From Roseibium aggregatum (GTDB lineage Bacteria > Pseudomonadota > Alphaproteobacteria > Rhizobiales > Stappiaceae): a stretch of 64,000 bases of DNA. Shown in pieces: positions 21,926 through 28,932 of the stretch (its first letter is position 1; every line of letters starts with the position of its first letter). The position numbers were made by a program, and so were the translations under genes. The stretch spans positions 1 to 64,000 of the forward strand of contig NZ_JAEKJZ010000007.1 of assembly GCF_017309185.1 (NCBI RefSeq), read 5' to 3'. The notes below the pieces were generated by a model. The model searched no databases and was not told the origin of the DNA. It saw only the letters and a list, made by a program, of their open reading frames with translations.

Positions 21926-23089
21926 TCATTCCTCCAGCAAGTGCTCGTAGCGTTTGTCCGTCAGCGTCTTCAGGAAGGCGACAAGCGCGTCGATCCGCTT
22001 GGTGTCGAGCGCCGGCCCGTGCTCCAGCTCCTTCAGCGACAGATTGCCGTCGACTTCAGGCCCCCCCCAGGGCTCCCCGGTTTCCGGGTTGGTCTGGGCG
22101 CCGGAGGCCTTGCTGTTGTACTTGTTGTAGAAGACGACGGTCGTCCGCAGATCCTTGAAGACGCCGTTGTGCATGTAAGGACCCGTCACGGCGACATTGC
22201 GCAGGGTCGGAACCTTGAACTTGCCCAAGTGCTCCGGATCGGAAACCAGCGGATTGTTCACCAGCCCCGGATCGACAAACCCTTCTTCTTGACCGTTGAC
22301 CGCCCGTGCCGCCGCGTTCACCGGAATACCGATATTGTGATACTCGTAGTTCGAGAAGGTTTCTTCTCTGGAAACCTGGGACGTCTTGAGCTGGTGGCAC
22401 TGGTTGCAGTTGGTGAACTGCTGCGAGAAGAACAGAAGACGGCCCAGTTCCTCCTGATCGCTGAACTTCGCTTCGCCGCGCAGATAGCGGTCATATTTGG
22501 AATCGAAGGGCGCGAACAGGTCCGTTTCCTCGAAAGCTGCGAGGCTGGCCTTCATCGCTTCGTAGCCGGTTTCGTTATCGTCAAGGGTGCCCTCCCCGAA
22601 CAACGCGTCAATAGCCTTCACGTAAGCCGCATTTTCCTTCAGCCTGTCGACGACGGATGCCTTGTCGGGCATCCCCATTTCAACCGGATTGAGCGGCGGT
22701 CCACCGGCCTGGCCTTTGATGTCCGGCTCCCGGCCATCGAGAAACTGGCCACCGCGATAGTTGCCGTCCTCCATCCGGTGAAACTCCGGAGAAAATTTCG
22801 CGTAAGAAGCCGTCGGGGCATTCCGGTCTCCGAGCGAAACGCCGTCATCTCCGAGCGACACCGCCAGCCCGGCATCGGTCGGGCGCGGGTCGACAAACCC
22901 GAAATCCGGATTGTGGCACGTTGCGCAGGCCTGGGTCCGATTCTTCGACAGGTTCACATCGAAGAAAAGCGCCTCGCCCAGCGCCGCCTTTGTATCGAAG
23001 CTCTGGCCATCTTCCGCATACCCGGTGCCGCTTACAAGAACGGCAGCAGCCAGTCCGATCGCTGTTCCTGCGCAAGAGAACACCTTCAT
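21926..23089 (-). CDS. Di-haem cytochrome c peroxidase, periplasmic (387 aa)
   Basis: Reduces H2O2 to water in the periplasm using electrons from cytochrome c. A Sec signal (MKVFSCAG... to GTGYA) precedes two haem-c motifs: CATCH at residues 55-59 and CNQCH at 228-232. The family blocks NPVEMGMPDK and FKVPTLRNVAVTGPYMHNG are present. Start ATG 23089 has AAAGGAGA upstream; the frame extends to 23200 without signal-peptide character. A perfect FnrL-type box lies about 275 bases upstream (23364-23377), fitting microaerobic or anaerobic induction with a long leader. MauG-type relatives are an alternative, but the context is peroxidase. Confidence 0.88.
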   Translation of the reverse strand: MKVFSCAGTAIGLAAAVLVSGTGYAEDGQSFDTKAALGEALFFDVNLSKNRTQACATCHNPDFGFVDPRPTDAGLAVSLGDDGVSLGDRNAPTASYAKFSPEFHRMEDGNYRGGQFLDGREPDIKGQAGGPPLNPVEMGMPDKASVVDRLKENAAYVKAIDALFGEGTLDDNETGYEAMKASLAAFEETDLFAPFDSKYDRYLRGEAKFSDQEELGRLLFFSQQFTNCNQCHQLKTSQVSREETFSNYEYHNIGIPVNAAARAVNGQEEGFVDPGLVNNPLVSDPEHLGKFKVPTLRNVAVTGPYMHNGVFKDLRTTVVFYNKYNSKASGAQTNPETGEPWGGPEVDGNLSLKELEHGPALDTKRIDALVAFLKTLTDKRYEHLLEE

Positions 23090-23475: not shown

Positions 23476-23922
23476 CTATCGCAAGCCGATTTTCATCGTG
23501 GTCAGCCCACGGTCCAGGGCGCGATTGATCAGCGTGTTCACAAGCGCCCTGCTGACGGCTTCGCCGACGGCGCGGGCAACCTTCGGCTGCACGCCGCGCG
23601 GGGTGTCCCCGGTGCGGGGGGTGGCGGCCGCTGCGGTGGGGCCCGCCGCGGTCTCGGCCCGGTGATTCAGCGATGACTTCGGGCAATGGCTGCAAATGAG
23701 GTCCATGATGCTGGTCAGCTGTCCGGTCGCCGTTGAGTAATAGACGATCACGGACGCCGCATGGCGGTTGATCTCTACTTCATCAACGCCTTGCAGCGCT
23801 CCGACCTCTGCCAGGAGCCTGTCAGCCATTTCCGGATCCCGGCGCAGAGCCTCCAGCTTGAAGCGGGCCCGCCCCGGCACATGATGTACGCAAGAGACCA
23901 CTTTGCGACCTCGACATTCCAT
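23476..23922 (-). CDS. HMA-like protein lacking CxxC, possible FezC-type ferrosome protein (148 aa)
   Basis: Residues 9-75 form a ferredoxin-like HMA_2 domain: CVHHVPGRARFKLEAL, then LQGVDEVEINRHAASVIVYY. It has no CxxC metal site; the conserved H-x-x-PGRxR motif is used instead, as also seen at the N-terminus of the ATPase upstream. The C-terminal half is Ala/Thr/Pro-rich, then a short amphipathic helix. Last gene of the 27.3-23.5 kb cluster. In ferrosome (fez) loci, FezC is an HMA-domain protein beside the P1B6-type ATPase FezB. The assignment is by layout and domain type only. A short hairpin (23941-23958) separates it from the ATPase gene. Confidence 0.6.
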   Translation of the reverse strand: MECRGRKVVSCVHHVPGRARFKLEALRRDPEMADRLLAEVGALQGVDEVEINRHAASVIVYYSTATGQLTSIMDLICSHCPKSSLNHRAETAAGPTAAAATPRTGDTPRGVQPKVARAVGEAVSRALVNTLINRALDRGLTTMKIGLR

Positions 23923-23940
23923 TCAGATCTCAAAGTTTGG

Positions 23941-23958
23941 CTATTTTGAAGAAAATAG
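23941..23958 (-). other. Short perfect hairpin between ATPase and HMA genes
   Basis: CTATTTT-GAAG-AAAATAG, seven-base arms with a four-base loop, in the 75-base gap. It is AT-rich and lacks a T-run, so it is more likely an mRNA processing or stability element than a terminator. Confidence 0.35.
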
Positions 23959-23997
23959 TCAAGTTTAATGGAAGCGATGTAGCGCAAATTCGTCCCT

Positions 23998-26166
23998 TCA
24001 GGGAAGAAGCCTGTTTTGCGCGCTGCGCGGCTGCGGCAAACCGGCGCGTAAAAGAGCATGAACCAGTAGAGCGATCGTCGACCCGTTATGCAGCAGAGCC
24101 GCGGCAACGGGTGACAGGTGACCGGTCGACGCCGCGATAAACAGTCCCGTATTGATACCCAGGGCGGCAGTCGTGTTTGTGGAGATGATCCGCATAGCCT
24201 GGTCCGCCGCCTCGCGGGCATCGGCAACCGCCCCGATCCGGTCATCGAGAAGGATGATGTCGGCGGAAGCCTGCGCAAGATCGGCGCCCTGCGGCATGCT
24301 GAATCCGACATTGGCAGCCGCAAGCGCGGGTGCATCGTTGATGCCGTCGCCGACAAACGCGACTTTCGCTCCCTTGGCCTGAAGCTCCGTGAGAATACGC
24401 GACTTGTCCTCGGGACGAAGCTCCGCGTGGACCTCGTCGAAACCCAGCGTTCTTCCGAACGTCTCTGCGCGGGTTTTCCGGTCTCCGGTCAGCATGACCA
24501 GACGCTTGATCCCGGCGCGGTGCAGCCGTTCCATGGTCTTGCAGGCATCCTCGCGCAACTCGTCGCGCAATCCGACAAGCCCGATCGGCTTGCCTCCATA
24601 GGCCATGTACAGGAGCATCTTGCCCTCTTGCACGAGCCGCTCCGCCGTCTCCGTGTGCGGGTCGAAATCGATCGCCTCGACCGTTTGCAGGAAATGACGG
24701 CTGCCGATCAGGAAGGAGTCTCCTGCCACGTCGGCACGCAATCCCAATCCCACCTCGAAGGTCACGTCCCCATGGGAGACGTGGGCCGTGCCACGCACTT
24801 TCGACTCTCTCACGATCGCATTTGCCACCGGGTGGTGGGAGTGCTCTTCGACGGAAGCTGCAAGCGCGAGCAACCGCTCCTCCGGCCACGCCTTCGGCTC
24901 CAGGGACACCACATCGGTCACGGACAGCGTTCCATGGGTCAAAGTGCCGGTTTTGTCGAACACGAACGTGTCCGCCTCGGCGAGTTTCTCGATACTGGGA
25001 CCGCCTTTGATCAAAACGCCCCGCGAGACCGCCTCCGACATGGTCGCGCGCACCGCGACAGGTGCGCTGAGCTTGATCGGACAGGCATAATCAACCAGAA
25101 AAACCGAACTGAGACGGCGAAGGTCCCGGGTCAGCAGCAGGGTGGCCAGGCCCAGCCCCAGGGTCATGTACACTTGCCGGTCGGCATGCTTTTCGGCGAG
25201 CCGTTCGGTCTCGGATCTTTCGTCGAGTGCTTGTTGTATGAGGGAAGCGACAAGTGCGGTCGTCGTTTCGTCGCCGACCTGTTGCGCCTCGATCTTCACC
25301 TGGCCGCTTTGAACGACGCTTCCCGCAATGACGCTGTCCCCGGGATGTTTGCCGACCGGAACGCTCTCACCGGTGATCGAGGCCTGGTTGATCTCGGCCG
25401 AGCCGCTGTGCACCACACCGTCCACCGGAACGAGCCCCCCGGTTTGCACGATCACCAGATCGCCTTTCCTGACTTGCTCGAACGGCACTTCAACCGCGCC
25501 ACCCTCGCTGTCGATCCAGGCCGTTTCAGGGTTCGGCATGAGCAACTCATGCAGGAGCGCTCCGGAATGCCGCATGGTTGTCTCTTCGAGATATTCTCCC
25601 GTGGACATCATGGTGTCGGTGGTCAGGGCCATTCCGAATTGGCCGCGCAGGGCCCCTATACCCACGGCAAGTGCGTCAAGCAGCTCCACCGTGACGCCCG
25701 CCGTCGCGACGGACTGCGCGCCCTTCAGGACTCTCGGCGCGATGGTTGCGGCACAAAGGACGTTGCCAAGAAGTGGGGGAAGAAACGGGCGGGCGGCCAG
25801 AAGAGCGGCCCGCCCGGCAAGGTGAAGGATGTTGGGACCGTCGTCGCTCTCGATCCTGCGGAACTTCAGGGTCTCGCGGCGCAGGTTCGCAAGCCTGTCC
25901 AGAACACGCGTCCGCGCTGCCTGCGTTCCGTCATGGGTCACGATCACGGAAATCGCATCCGGATTGATACGCACCGAACTGACGCCAAGGATGGCCCGAA
26001 GCAGCCGGCACAGATGATCCGTGTCGAGGGCCGGAAGTCCCAGGACCGGCATCTTGACCCGCAATCGTTCAGGGCCTTCGTGAACGATATCGACCCTCGC
26101 CTCCAGGCGTTTCAAGGCCTCATCGCCAAGAGGCAGTTCCGTCACCGGACGAAGCGCACGGTCCAT
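23998..26166 (-). CDS. P1B-type metal ATPase with N-terminal HMA_2 domain, FezB-like candidate (722 aa)
   Basis: N-terminal HMA_2-type domain (residues 24-78, HEGPERLRVKMP, no CxxC). All P-type ATPase motifs are present: TGES (265-268), phosphorylation site DKTGT with D404, HP at about 446, and GDGINDAP near 614. The transport-site motif is DYACPIKLSAPVAV (C362), unlike the CPC/CPH/SPC/TPC of Cu, Zn or Co pumps but near the DYxCx-K-L-S/A type reported for P1B-6 ATPases, which include FezB of ferrosomes and mycobacterial CtpC. Four small genes of the same cluster surround it. Iron (or Mn) transport into a compartment is the favoured inference. Confidence 0.75.
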   Translation of the reverse strand: MDRALRPVTELPLGDEALKRLEARVDIVHEGPERLRVKMPVLGLPALDTDHLCRLLRAILGVSSVRINPDAISVIVTHDGTQAARTRVLDRLANLRRETLKFRRIESDDGPNILHLAGRAALLAARPFLPPLLGNVLCAATIAPRVLKGAQSVATAGVTVELLDALAVGIGALRGQFGMALTTDTMMSTGEYLEETTMRHSGALLHELLMPNPETAWIDSEGGAVEVPFEQVRKGDLVIVQTGGLVPVDGVVHSGSAEINQASITGESVPVGKHPGDSVIAGSVVQSGQVKIEAQQVGDETTTALVASLIQQALDERSETERLAEKHADRQVYMTLGLGLATLLLTRDLRRLSSVFLVDYACPIKLSAPVAVRATMSEAVSRGVLIKGGPSIEKLAEADTFVFDKTGTLTHGTLSVTDVVSLEPKAWPEERLLALAASVEEHSHHPVANAIVRESKVRGTAHVSHGDVTFEVGLGLRADVAGDSFLIGSRHFLQTVEAIDFDPHTETAERLVQEGKMLLYMAYGGKPIGLVGLRDELREDACKTMERLHRAGIKRLVMLTGDRKTRAETFGRTLGFDEVHAELRPEDKSRILTELQAKGAKVAFVGDGINDAPALAAANVGFSMPQGADLAQASADIILLDDRIGAVADAREAADQAMRIISTNTTAALGINTGLFIAASTGHLSPVAAALLHNGSTIALLVHALLRAGLPQPRSAQNRLLP

Positions 26167-26175
26167 GACAGGCGC

Positions 26176-26409
26176 TTACTTCACCTTGGAGGATTTGATT
26201 TCCGACTCGGCGTCGCGAAACCGCTCTTTTGTCTCCTCGAGCCCGCCCTTCAGGGTGAGCCACACATGAGCCACGCCGTTTATGGCAGCCCGTTGCACCG
26301 CTTCGTTCGTCAAGACATAGGTGACGGCGCCACCGACGAGAGCCCCCGTCAGAAAGCTGCCTTTCGTCAATGTGTTTCCGGCTTTGCTTCCGTCTGCGGG
26401 ATTTTTCAT
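26176..26409 (-). CDS. Small YtxH-like Gly-rich membrane protein (77 aa)
   Basis: A single Gly/Ala-rich hydrophobic segment (GSFLTGALVGGAVTYVL, with GxxxG spacing) followed by an amphipathic, charged helix (GGLEETKERFRDAESEIKSS), the build of YtxH-type and FezA-like membrane-shaping small proteins. GAGACAAC precedes the ATG at 26409. It lies nine bases before the ATPase gene and must be co-expressed with it. No enzymatic motif. Confidence 0.6.
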   Translation of the reverse strand: MKNPADGSKAGNTLTKGSFLTGALVGGAVTYVLTNEAVQRAAINGVAHVWLTLKGGLEETKERFRDAESEIKSSKVK

Positions 26410-26484
26410 TGTTGTCTCCTTGCTGTCCTTCTTGCCTCTGGCGCAAGTAGCCTTCTCCTGGGACCGCTCTCCGCGAGAAGCGCT

Positions 26485-26844
26485 CTATTGGCCTTCGTCC
26501 GACGCCGTCGGCGTGTCGGCCTGAGCAGCGTTCTTGGAGGAATTGGCGATATAGTAGGCCCCCACACCCGCCGCGACCACGGCAAGGCCGAACAACGGCA
26601 CGCTCCTTGCGAAATGTGAGGCAATCTGCGCGACGGCGCCCGCCGCAGCGCCGATGGCGGCACTGTTAGCGGTCGCGCGCAAGGCTTCGTCGCCGGTGGT
26701 TTCCTTGTTGCGGAAACGGATCGCCTCGTTGATACCGGTCCATGTTCCGGTGATCGCCGCGCCACTCAGCCCGGCACGCACCACTTCGGTTGTGGTAAGA
26801 TGAGGGGTCTGAATCTGGCCACCCTGTCCACTAGCTGTCGTCAT
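26485..26844 (-). CDS. Gly/Ala-rich membrane protein with GxxxG motifs (119 aa)
   Basis: Two or three hydrophobic Gly/Ala-rich segments: VVRAGLSGAAITGTWTGINE, AIGAAAGAVAQIASHF and LFGLAVVAAGVGAYYIA. Repeated small-xxx-small spacing suggests tight helix packing in a membrane, as described for FezA and magnetosome-type small proteins. The ATG at 26844 is inside the end of the upstream gene (14-base overlap) with AGGAGAG before it; an ATG at 26859 is less likely. Function is otherwise unknown. Confidence 0.6.
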   Translation of the reverse strand: MTTASGQGGQIQTPHLTTTEVVRAGLSGAAITGTWTGINEAIRFRNKETTGDEALRATANSAAIGAAAGAVAQIASHFARSVPLFGLAVVAAGVGAYYIANSSKNAAQADTPTASDEGQ

Positions 26845-27325
26845 CCTGTCTCTCCTCACTGGCTTCCTCGACAGGCCCGGCTTTGGATGTCTCCGAGGCT
26901 GGAGTGTTTTGCGAAAAGGCTGAAGCTGTAAATGATGCGATCAAGGCCTTGATGGCCGGCATGTTGGAGACGGCCAGAACGGCGGCGGAGCCCAGGAGAG
27001 CCCCTTTCCAGAAGTCCCTGTCCTTCAGATCGAACAACTTGCCCAGCGTTTCGGCGCTGAGATCGCCACGCGACAGCCTGTTGAAAGCATCCATCAGATC
27101 CTGGTTGCCCGCCTCGGCGTCCGGTTGAACACCCGCATCGCCGGCCGAACCGCCGGCGGCGCCAAACGGCCCCTGCCCGCCTCCCGCCCAAGGCGGTTGC
27201 GGACCGAAATAATACCAGCCGTGCGGCGGTTGCCCGTTTTGCCCGTGCCCCGAATGATCGCCATATCCTCCGCCATTGTTCGCGGAACCGTTACCTGCTT
27301 GCGGAGACGCGCTGTTATCCGTCAT
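26831..27325 (-). CDS. Gly/His-rich N-terminus plus membrane segment, first gene of fez-like cluster (164 aa)
   Basis: Residues 10-60 are very rich in Gly, Asn, His, Pro and aromatic residues (GDHSGHGQNGQPPHGWYYFG), a possible metal-binding or assembly segment. Residues 75-105 hold a charged helix (DLMDAFNRLSRGDLSAETLG, then KLFDLKDRDFWKGALLGSAA), continuing into a hydrophobic segment (LLGSAAVLAVSNMPAIKALI). The C-terminus is acidic. No close family recalled with certainty. It heads the cluster, with an FnrL-type box about 85 bases upstream of its ATG. Confidence 0.6.
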   Translation of the reverse strand: MTDNSASPQAGNGSANNGGGYGDHSGHGQNGQPPHGWYYFGPQPPWAGGGQGPFGAAGGSAGDAGVQPDAEAGNQDLMDAFNRLSRGDLSAETLGKLFDLKDRDFWKGALLGSAAVLAVSNMPAIKALIASFTASAFSQNTPASETSKAGPVEEASEERQDDDS

Positions 27326-27406
27326 TTCGACCTCTTGCTCCTGGAGAGACCTCGCGGCAATCTCAGATGGTATTGCAGCCTTAGCAGAAGTTCACCAGGG
27401 GCACGA

Positions 27407-27420
27407 ATGACTTAAATCAA
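27407..27420. promoter_or_regulatory. FnrL-type box ATGAC-TTAA-ATCAA before the fez-like cluster
   Basis: Matches TTGAY-N4-RTCAA at 9 of 10 fixed positions (first T is A). It lies 82-95 bases upstream of the first gene at 27325. This suggests low-oxygen activation of the metal ATPase cluster, in step with the peroxidase gene next to it. Confidence 0.6.
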
Positions 27421-27582: not shown

Positions 27583-28488
27583 TCATGCGCCCTTGTGCTG
27601 CTGCCTGCCGGCCCATTCGGCACAGGTCCTGATCCCGCCGAGCGGAAAGAAATGGACTTTCTCGACAGGGGAATCCGGCCGGGACGCGACTTCCCGGCTC
27701 AGCGCCTCAAGAACGTCGGTCGGCTCGTAAGGCAGCAGCAAACGGCTAAGATCCATCGCCCTACGTTTCAACACCTTGACGGACGGCCCGACACCGCAGG
27801 TCATGGCGAATTTGATCAGCGTCTGCAACTTCGCCGGCCCCGCGATACCGAGATGTATGGGAAGCCCGATGCCCATCTCCTGCAGGCGCGCTACCCACCG
27901 GGTTACCGGCTCCGCATCGAAGAAAAACTGAGTGACAATTGCCATGTCCGCATCCGTGCGCTCGGAAAAGGACTGCTTCCACTGTAGCGCCTCATCGACA
28001 CGCCTCGAGGTTCCGTCCCTGTCGATATCGGGATTGCCCTCCGGATGCCCGGCAACATGCAGGCGGCTGAAACCGAACCTATCGAACAGACCGCTTTCAA
28101 GCAATTGCATGGTGTTGTCGTAGTCGCCGATAGGTTTGGACGTACCGCCGCCGATCAGGAGCGCCTCGTTCACATCCGCCTCCTCCCGGTAGCGCGACAG
28201 CATGGTCCTGAAGTCTTCGGCATTACGAATCAGACGCGCCGGCAGGTGCGGCATGACACGGAACCCGTCGTCGCGCAGCCTTCGTGCCGTCAGGAGCATA
28301 TCCTCGAAATCCGTGCCTTCGACATTCGCGATATAGACGCAGGTTCCTTCCGGCAAAAGCGCCTTGAAGTCGTCGATCTTCGCCGCGGTGCGCGGGAGAA
28401 CCTCGATCGAATAGCCCCTCACCAGGTCGCCGACGGCACTATCCCGGCTCATCTCCGCACCTTGACAGTCCCCCTCTCGTTCCAACAT
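27583..28488 (-). CDS. Methylenetetrahydrofolate reductase-like protein (301 aa)
   Basis: A TIM-barrel flavoprotein of the MetF family: GYSIEVLPRTAAKI at the start (the conserved SxEVxPP-like strand), RVMPHLPAR, LLIGGG, HVAGHPEGNPD, VTQFFFDAEPVTRW and GIAGPAKLQTLIKFA. It would interconvert 5-methyl- and 5,10-methylene-THF, here probably oxidising the methyl-THF made by the LigM-like demethylase. A strong GGGAGGT precedes ATG 28488; the frame is open to 28623 but lacks support there. Shorter than E. coli MetF-linked fusions but normal in length for single-domain MetF. A TGTATACA palindrome lies 29 bases upstream. Confidence 0.82.
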   Translation of the reverse strand: MLEREGDCQGAEMSRDSAVGDLVRGYSIEVLPRTAAKIDDFKALLPEGTCVYIANVEGTDFEDMLLTARRLRDDGFRVMPHLPARLIRNAEDFRTMLSRYREEADVNEALLIGGGTSKPIGDYDNTMQLLESGLFDRFGFSRLHVAGHPEGNPDIDRDGTSRRVDEALQWKQSFSERTDADMAIVTQFFFDAEPVTRWVARLQEMGIGLPIHLGIAGPAKLQTLIKFAMTCGVGPSVKVLKRRAMDLSRLLLPYEPTDVLEALSREVASRPDSPVEKVHFFPLGGIRTCAEWAGRQQHKGA

Positions 28489-28516
28489 CGCGACACCTCC
28501 CAGATCGACCCTAAAA

Positions 28517-28524
28517 TGTATACA
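28517..28524. promoter_or_regulatory. GntR-type operator TGTATACA before the metF-like gene
   Basis: Perfect 8-bp palindrome 29 bases upstream of the start codon at 28488. The same palindrome lies 30 bases upstream of the LigM-like gene. A related site ATGCATACAT follows at 28614-28623. FCD-type GntR regulators bind sites of this kind. Confidence 0.6.
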
Positions 28525-28709
28525 CAATTCAGATCTAAATCGAAAGACAATTACAAAATCCACTGATAAAGTGCGAGTTTGTTGCAGGCAAAGATCCTCT
28601 TTGCTTCTAAAAAATGCATACATTTATCGACTAAACCATCCACCGCCCGGACAGAGAACAAGAGGTGGCAGCGACCCTGCCGCCTCAGACGATCAACGCT
28701 CCCTCGAAC

Positions 28710-28895
28710 CGTCATTCCGGACAAGTGAGGCGCCAGCCGAGCGCAGATCCGGAATCCAGACATATTCTGCGCCGAAGGCGCTCAATACAAAATAAAATCA
28801 AATAGATATGATATAGAGTGCTCGCTGCCGCTCGCGCAGACGTCTGGATTCCGGCTCACGCGATGCCGCTTCGCGGCACTCTGTCCGGAATGACG
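28710..28895. repeat. Nested inverted-repeat element, about 186 bp
   Basis: Outer arms CGTCATTCCGGACA (28710-28723) and TGTCCGGAATGACG (28882-28895) are perfect over 14 bases. Inner arms CCGGAATCCAGAC (28749-28761) and GTCTGGATTCCGG (28842-28854) are perfect over 13. The centre is AT-rich. It has no coding capacity and fills most of the 28624-28932 gap. It looks like a dispersed MITE/REP-type genome repeat. Confidence 0.7.
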
Positions 28896-28932
28896 ATCCG
28901 AGAGTTTGTCGGAGAACTCGAGAAACGGCCAC

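Follow-up and report, generated by a model that had tools for sequence, protein, structure and literature searches.

The window, as the whole 64-kb stretch of DNA analyzed here is called, holds a candidate fez (ferrosome) locus of five ORFs on the minus strand, which run from 27325 to 23476 in the ORF listing and all read in one direction, as the original prediction had described. The features are as follows:

26831..27325, minus strand: gene 1 ("head"), 164 aa, with a Gly-rich N-terminus containing GWYYFGPQPP and a C-terminal hydrophobic stretch, DRDFWKGALLGSAAVLAVSN; HMM homologues occur in other fez loci
26485..26859, minus strand: gene 2, GxxxG small membrane protein, 124 aa, or 119 aa from the inner ATG at 26844 (the likely start)
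26176..26409, minus strand: gene 3, YtxH-like small protein, 77 aa, directly 5' of the ATPase gene
23998..26166, minus strand: gene 4, predicted FezB-type P1B ATPase, 722 aa, with an HMA-like N-domain, DYACPIKLS and HNG at residues 693–695
23476..23922, minus strand: gene 5, stand-alone HMA_2 protein, 148 aa (Pfam HMA_2, 40.2 bits; cut-off, 30)
27407..27420, minus strand: FNR/FixK-type box TTGATTTAAGTCAT, 81 bp 5' of the first start codon
23364..23377, minus strand: second FNR-type box, TTGATATCGGTCAA, a perfect site after gene 5 and 5' of a di-haem peroxidase-like gene, outside the operon

As listed, genes 1 and 2 share 29 bp; the overlap is 14 bp if gene 2 begins at the inner ATG. The YtxH-like gene and the ATPase gene are 9 bp apart, and the remaining two intergenic gaps measure 75 bp each. 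Judged by comparison of sequences, the five ORFs are real genes and chance ORFs are excluded, because all four small genes have homologues in the same order in other loci. A promoter and terminator scan returned one promoter-like site (0.8 in shuffles) and seven terminator-like sites (4.0 in shuffles) and was set aside.

Pfam gave no match for genes 1 and 2, and NCBIfam gave nothing close to cut-off for either. The head gene had been predicted to be rich in both glycine and histidine; its product contains 16% Gly and only 3 His in 164 residues, so the first half of that description stands and the second does not. The gene 1 homologues on a Vibrio plasmid and in genomes related to that plasmid are His-rich. 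Gene 2 shares 57% identity with the R. capsulatus copy, and its AlphaFold model shows three helices at a mean pLDDT of 63.5, a low confidence too weak for comparison. Gene 3 is 47–57% identical to four relatives and 29% identical to the Azospirillum copy. Its predicted YtxH-like character is drawn from these relatives: among the three family members scanned (window, Cereibacter, and Azospirillum), Pfam YtxH matched the Azospirillum protein only, weakly and below cut-off (E value, 1.9e-4), and the counterparts in the Azospirillum and Arcobacter records are annotated as YtxH-domain proteins. By position only, gene 3 is a possible FezA equivalent.

Gene 5 encodes the sole HMA_2 match above cut-off in the whole genome, with two sub-cut-off matches elsewhere. 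It had been described as an HMA protein without CxxC, which holds for the HMA loop and fails just past the HMA domain, where residues 77–80 read CSHC; the R. capsulatus counterpart has CAHC at this place. Neither DUF4405 nor a C-terminal haem-type motif was found in the gene 5 product by Pfam and motif scan. Elsewhere in the same genome, DUF4405 gave one match above cut-off (C1:2166540) and one below. Sub-threshold HMA_2 matches were also seen at C1:675561-688164, near two large P-type ATPase frames (985–993 aa), which possibly form another metal-transport cluster.

The ATPase core was recognized by Pfam (E1-E2_ATPase, 6.3e-35; Hydrolase, 6.6e-33), and the P1B transport motif foreseen for it, DYACPIKLS, was located at residues 359–367. 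The CxxC-less HMA_2 start was likewise confirmed: the N-terminal HMA-like domain has no CxxC in its HMA loop, its score against Pfam HMA_2 did not reach the cut-off (16.7 bits; cut-off, 30), and the AlphaFold model (mean pLDDT 79.0) places a beta-alpha-beta-beta-alpha-beta order at residues 26–93. As we read the model, its helices appear to follow the usual P1B arrangement.

Such a protein could be a copper or zinc/cadmium resistance pump misread as Fez. N-terminal HMA-like domains are usual in copper and zinc pumps, and two NCBIfam models, TIGR01525 (heavy-metal; 499.5 vs. 346.25 bits) and TIGR01512 (cadmium; 395 vs. 313.5 bits), were over cut-off. However, the copper subfamily TIGR01511 was below its cut-off (342 vs. 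397 bits), and the CopA and ZntA equivalogs were far below theirs (290 vs. 1316 and 275 vs. 1005 bits, respectively). The TM4 motif is DYACP and not CPC, and the HMA loop is devoid of CxxC; the window pump thus carries a proline after the TM4 cysteine, with DYACP instead of DYSCA.

Phylogenetic trees were also at odds with a copper or zinc pump. The search for relatives gave 11 of 199 genomes in the order and 10 of 398 in the phylum (own genome counted in both), at least 80 loci in a genome collection, and 21 of 72,556 plasmid records; ATPases outside the Fez clade are among these matches. Tree 1 took from the genome-collection loci 11 as Fez and 27 as others, leaving out a near copy (L015) and a stop-interrupted locus (L118). 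Tree 2 comprised 60 rows with bootstraps and omitted four long branches (L003, L004, L050, and L058) and a partial row (L091); the first residue of the window ATPase is missing from its row in both trees. In tree 1, with 65 P1B ATPases, the window pump fell into a 30-member D[YF][SA]C clade (SH-aLRT 99), and in tree 2 there were 29 Fez rows (support, 99/98); the clade is named Fez by its TM4 motif and neighbor genes, and not by an experimentally proven FezB row. The grouping with copper or zinc pumps that had been named in advance as the refuting case did not occur in either tree, E. coli CopA and ZntA lying outside the Fez clade in both. On trees and motifs, a copper or zinc identity was rejected, and we regard it as highly improbable.

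The nearest tree rows to the window ATPase were those of genome G072 (70% identity), R. capsulatus DSM 1710 (61%), and the Cereibacter plasmid pORIO2 (55%). The neighbor of the Fez clade in tree 1, and the nearest other ATPase group, is a P1B sister group of six loci with a DxGTGIR-type TM4, in which the TM4 cysteine and Lys365 are absent. AGACGVAAG, an unusual TM4 motif, was also encountered in a P1B ATPase of genome G636 (L139/L120).

Several residues distinguish the Fez clade from the other ATPases. K365 and H491 are each present in 29 of 30 clade members and in none of 35 others, H462 in 28/30 and 0/35, and E441 in 29/30 and 1/35. The H693 and N694 pair in the last membrane helix was found in all 29 clade rows covering the site and in 5/35 others. 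For the metal site, H693, N694, and C362 are the leading candidates. The HNG stretch of the ATPase presumably resembles HEGGT, a motif of P1B-4 pumps capable of moving Fe(II).

Gene content was compared by running profiles of the four small proteins, with the window's own among the seeds, on the window and 34 other fez-type loci. The YTX profile detected a YtxH-like gene in 31 of the 35 loci, window included; the head and YtxH-like profiles cross-match, and gene counts are therefore approximate. The head, GxxxG, and YtxH-like genes of the window all have homologues beside related ATPases. The order head, GxxxG, YtxH, ATPase, HMA is common to the window, R. capsulatus DSM 1710 (L033), and Cereibacter (L107), and was also found in two genomes of one genus (L020 and L026). 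The window has five genes with one stand-alone HMA, whereas six-gene loci carry two: Azospirillum shows HMA, HMA, head, GxxxG, YtxH, ATPase, and the Vibrio plasmid and related genomes have a six-gene version with two HMA genes, one of them divergent. A genome of the window's order (G097, L019) combines two HMA genes, a head gene, a YtxH-like gene, and two GxxxG-type ORFs with an ATPase 47% identical to that of the window.

These comparisons also bear on whether the cluster could simply export Fe(II) (or Mn/Co) through a pump in the cytoplasmic membrane, aided by accessory membrane proteins and forming no organelle. The solved structures closest to the ATPase are copper, zinc, and cadmium P1B pumps (23–30% identity, five best rows), vesicles are predicted here from the genes, and G072 carries the ATPase without the small genes. 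On the other hand, small membrane genes are kept with the pump in many loci, as the YTX counts indicate, and the six-gene set of R. palustris is reported to make ferrosomes (PMC12016538). Plain efflux is thus unlikely in our estimation, with a real chance nonetheless. As to G072 itself (L022), no YtxH-like partner was found in this 92% complete draft genome, and by our reading its ATPase appears to be flanked by a sulfurtransferase-like gene and a katG-like gene.

The cluster can be compared by description with characterized systems. Ferrosome formation in R. palustris is reported to involve a set of six fez genes, RPA2333-2338 (PMC12016538, citing Grant et al., 2022), and a second report (PMC6879726) places rpa2333-2338, together with iron genes, among metal-transport genes that go down in low light. 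The window cluster is of the same scale as this operon as described there, but has five genes, with a single HMA gene placed last. Ferrosomes in C. difficile are reported to depend on FezA and FezB, whose genes are Fur-repressed (PMC12574912). Like the C. difficile FezA-FezB pair and the FezC-bearing set of D. magneticus, as described in PMC12574912 and PMC10979944, the window combines a P1B ATPase with small membrane partners; it differs from them in having no FezC-like haem protein and in having additional head and GxxxG genes.

PMC10979944 presents FezC as a haem protein resembling DUF4405, and proteins with an HMA domain and a C-terminal H-x3-G-x(6-10)-H stretch, found in 5 of the 35 fez-type loci, were for this reason weakly read as FezC-like. 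Three of the five were scanned with DUF4405; L173 (E value, 0.0034) and Azospirillum (0.046) gave matches below cut-off, and the Duodenibacillus protein gave none. In Mailhella (a Desulfovibrionaceae) and Duodenibacillus, the HMA protein with the FezC-like motif is encoded directly 3' of a Fez-clade ATPase, and these pairs serve as the best substitute for a named anchor. A fezABC set was rejected for the window, because the operon has a single stand-alone HMA rather than two and lacks a FezC-like haem protein. The proposed resemblance to fezABC is accordingly retained for a fez-like locus, on the ATPase clade, and dropped for fezABC, gene 5 having no DUF4405-like haem domain. The small genes once listed as extra to fezABC are no anomaly but part of the larger fez type, which has six genes in Azospirillum and others and, as reported, in R. 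palustris.

Taken together, the cluster is likely a fez operon of the larger, R. palustris/Azospirillum-like type, with five genes and a proposed ferrosome function. The basis of this reading is homology, the clade, gene order, motif conservation, the iron-gene neighborhood of the clade, and the box. Weighing against it are the single HMA gene, the lack of a FezC-like protein in the operon, the G072 ATPase standing without small genes, and, as given below, the lack of Feo and TonB-receptor matches in the window and the ferritin-family matches of the genome. The closest parallels are R. capsulatus DSM 1710 and C. azotoformans pORIO2, whose clusters match the window in genes and order and also carry DYACP in the ATPase; no reports of function for either were met in the literature surveyed. 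The fez-type ferrosome system is known, and the window adds a new carrier with a reduced five-gene layout; carriers are rare among its close relatives. The word "ferrosome" did not occur in the papers listed on plasmid-borne or FNR-controlled cases, and no claim of being unpublished is made.

The neighborhood of the clade was compared with that of other P1B loci. Among 30 fez loci, 7 had FeoA or FeoB relatives in their flanks, and none of 72 other P1B loci did (Fisher p = 1.1e-4, relatedness uncorrected); for TonB receptors the counts were 3/30 and 0/72 (p = 0.024, relatedness uncorrected). The near copies L021, L023, L026, and L174 were left out of the Feo test, and flank lengths vary (median, 16,070 vs. 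15,599). Queries for FeoA, FeoB, and TonB receptors had no match in the 64 kb of the window. The genome has four ferritin-family matches, one with a stop inside the match. On pORIO2, the five-gene fez set adjoins feoA, NnrS, and TonB-receptor genes and a FecR-type regulator, together a compact plasmid iron island.

The FnrL-type box predicted ahead of the first gene is present exactly as described. Compared with the TTGAT-N4-ATCAA type, its right half-site is GTCAT for ATCAA, and it keeps the TG and CA positions (2–3 and 12–13) given as invariant in R. capsulatus FnrL sites in PMC4634722. With GTCAA-type half-sites accepted, it scored 9/10, a value equalled in 1 of 200 shuffles of the 500-bp upstream region. 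The pattern TTGATNNNNRTCAW matched twice in the window against 0.48 expected, with two or more matches in 10 of 100 shuffles. FNR-type sites scoring 9–10/10 were found in 5 of 28 fez upstream regions (1.04 expected), and those scoring at least 8 in 15 of 28 (5.50 expected), in a test that accepted TTGAC and GTCAA half-sites and kept the near copies L019/L023, L020/L026, L021/L025/L028, and L170/L174, so that the 28 regions are not independent. Perfect sites lie upstream of fez in Cereibacter (on pORIO2) and Pseudothauera, whereas the best site in R. capsulatus scored 6/10. The lack of a good FNR box in R. capsulatus, the closest full operon among the matches listed, is a counterpoint to the fez reading.

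The genome of the window yielded six matches to E. coli FNR, of which one bears an ETVSR recognition helix and another a CxxC near the N-terminus; the FixK-like regulator with the ETVSR helix is L189. From the promoter sequence, the operon is probably switched on at low oxygen. Behind the second box, downstream of the operon, lies a di-haem cytochrome c peroxidase/MbnH-like gene (21926-23089, minus strand), which was matched in one other genome of the genus (G261) among the matches listed, in a DNA search with at most six candidates scored per genome.

For the fez operon, we infer a Fe(II) substrate, membrane shaping, vesicle formation, and an oxygen response. The FezB-type ATPase would load vesicles by moving ferrous iron across their membrane, and the vesicles would arise at the cytoplasmic membrane or bud from it. 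Three small proteins, glycine-rich or with GxxxG, may shape or coat the vesicle membrane and help retain iron. Metal may be handed over, or the pump regulated, by the stand-alone HMA protein and the HMA-like domain of the ATPase, and an FNR- or FixK-type regulator would turn the operon on at low oxygen.

At E ≤ 1e-120, a Fez ATPase was found in 1 of 87 family genomes, that of the window itself; 45 of the 87, own included, belong to the same genus. The cluster was probably acquired, because it is present in this one family genome only, and gain by transfer is a simpler reading than loss elsewhere. Plasmid-borne fez loci were found in Cereibacter (typed conjugative), Azospirillum, Arcobacter, and a 1.7-Mb Vibrio plasmid, and a route for transfer therefore exists. 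Composition as a sign of transfer was not telling (GC of the operon, 0.622; window, 0.601).

An acquired cluster might instead have decayed or lost its function, and the single family genome and the one HMA gene fewer than in six-gene sets are compatible with such an outcome. However, the five frames are all open, the catalytic and clade-specific residues are retained, and the same gene set occurs in four other loci; we therefore consider decay very unlikely. More speculatively, the cluster could represent a pared-down ferrosome module that is under oxygen control and moves horizontally, in which five genes would suffice without FezC and without a second HMA, with a DYACP pump, an HMA partner with an added C-x-H-C site, and related modules on plasmids; this fuller picture is put forward tentatively. 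The natural sets (five genes, as in the window and in the laboratory genera of R. capsulatus and Cereibacter; six genes; and ATPase with a FezC-like protein) allow asking which fez genes a ferrosome needs and, given plasmid carriage, an iron-storage organelle could move between species.

Upstream of the operon, an MTHFR-like gene with a weak MTHFR match was observed (27583-28578, minus strand). In three congeners examined for an empty site (L140, L142, and L143), purU is near an MTHFR-like gene with another gene intervening, and the shared order was not seen to extend past the MTHFR-like gene. In the window, purU and the MTHFR-like gene are separated by a repeat of about 210 bp (28701-28910), copies of which, 84–85% identical, lie on C1 and C2 of the same genome.
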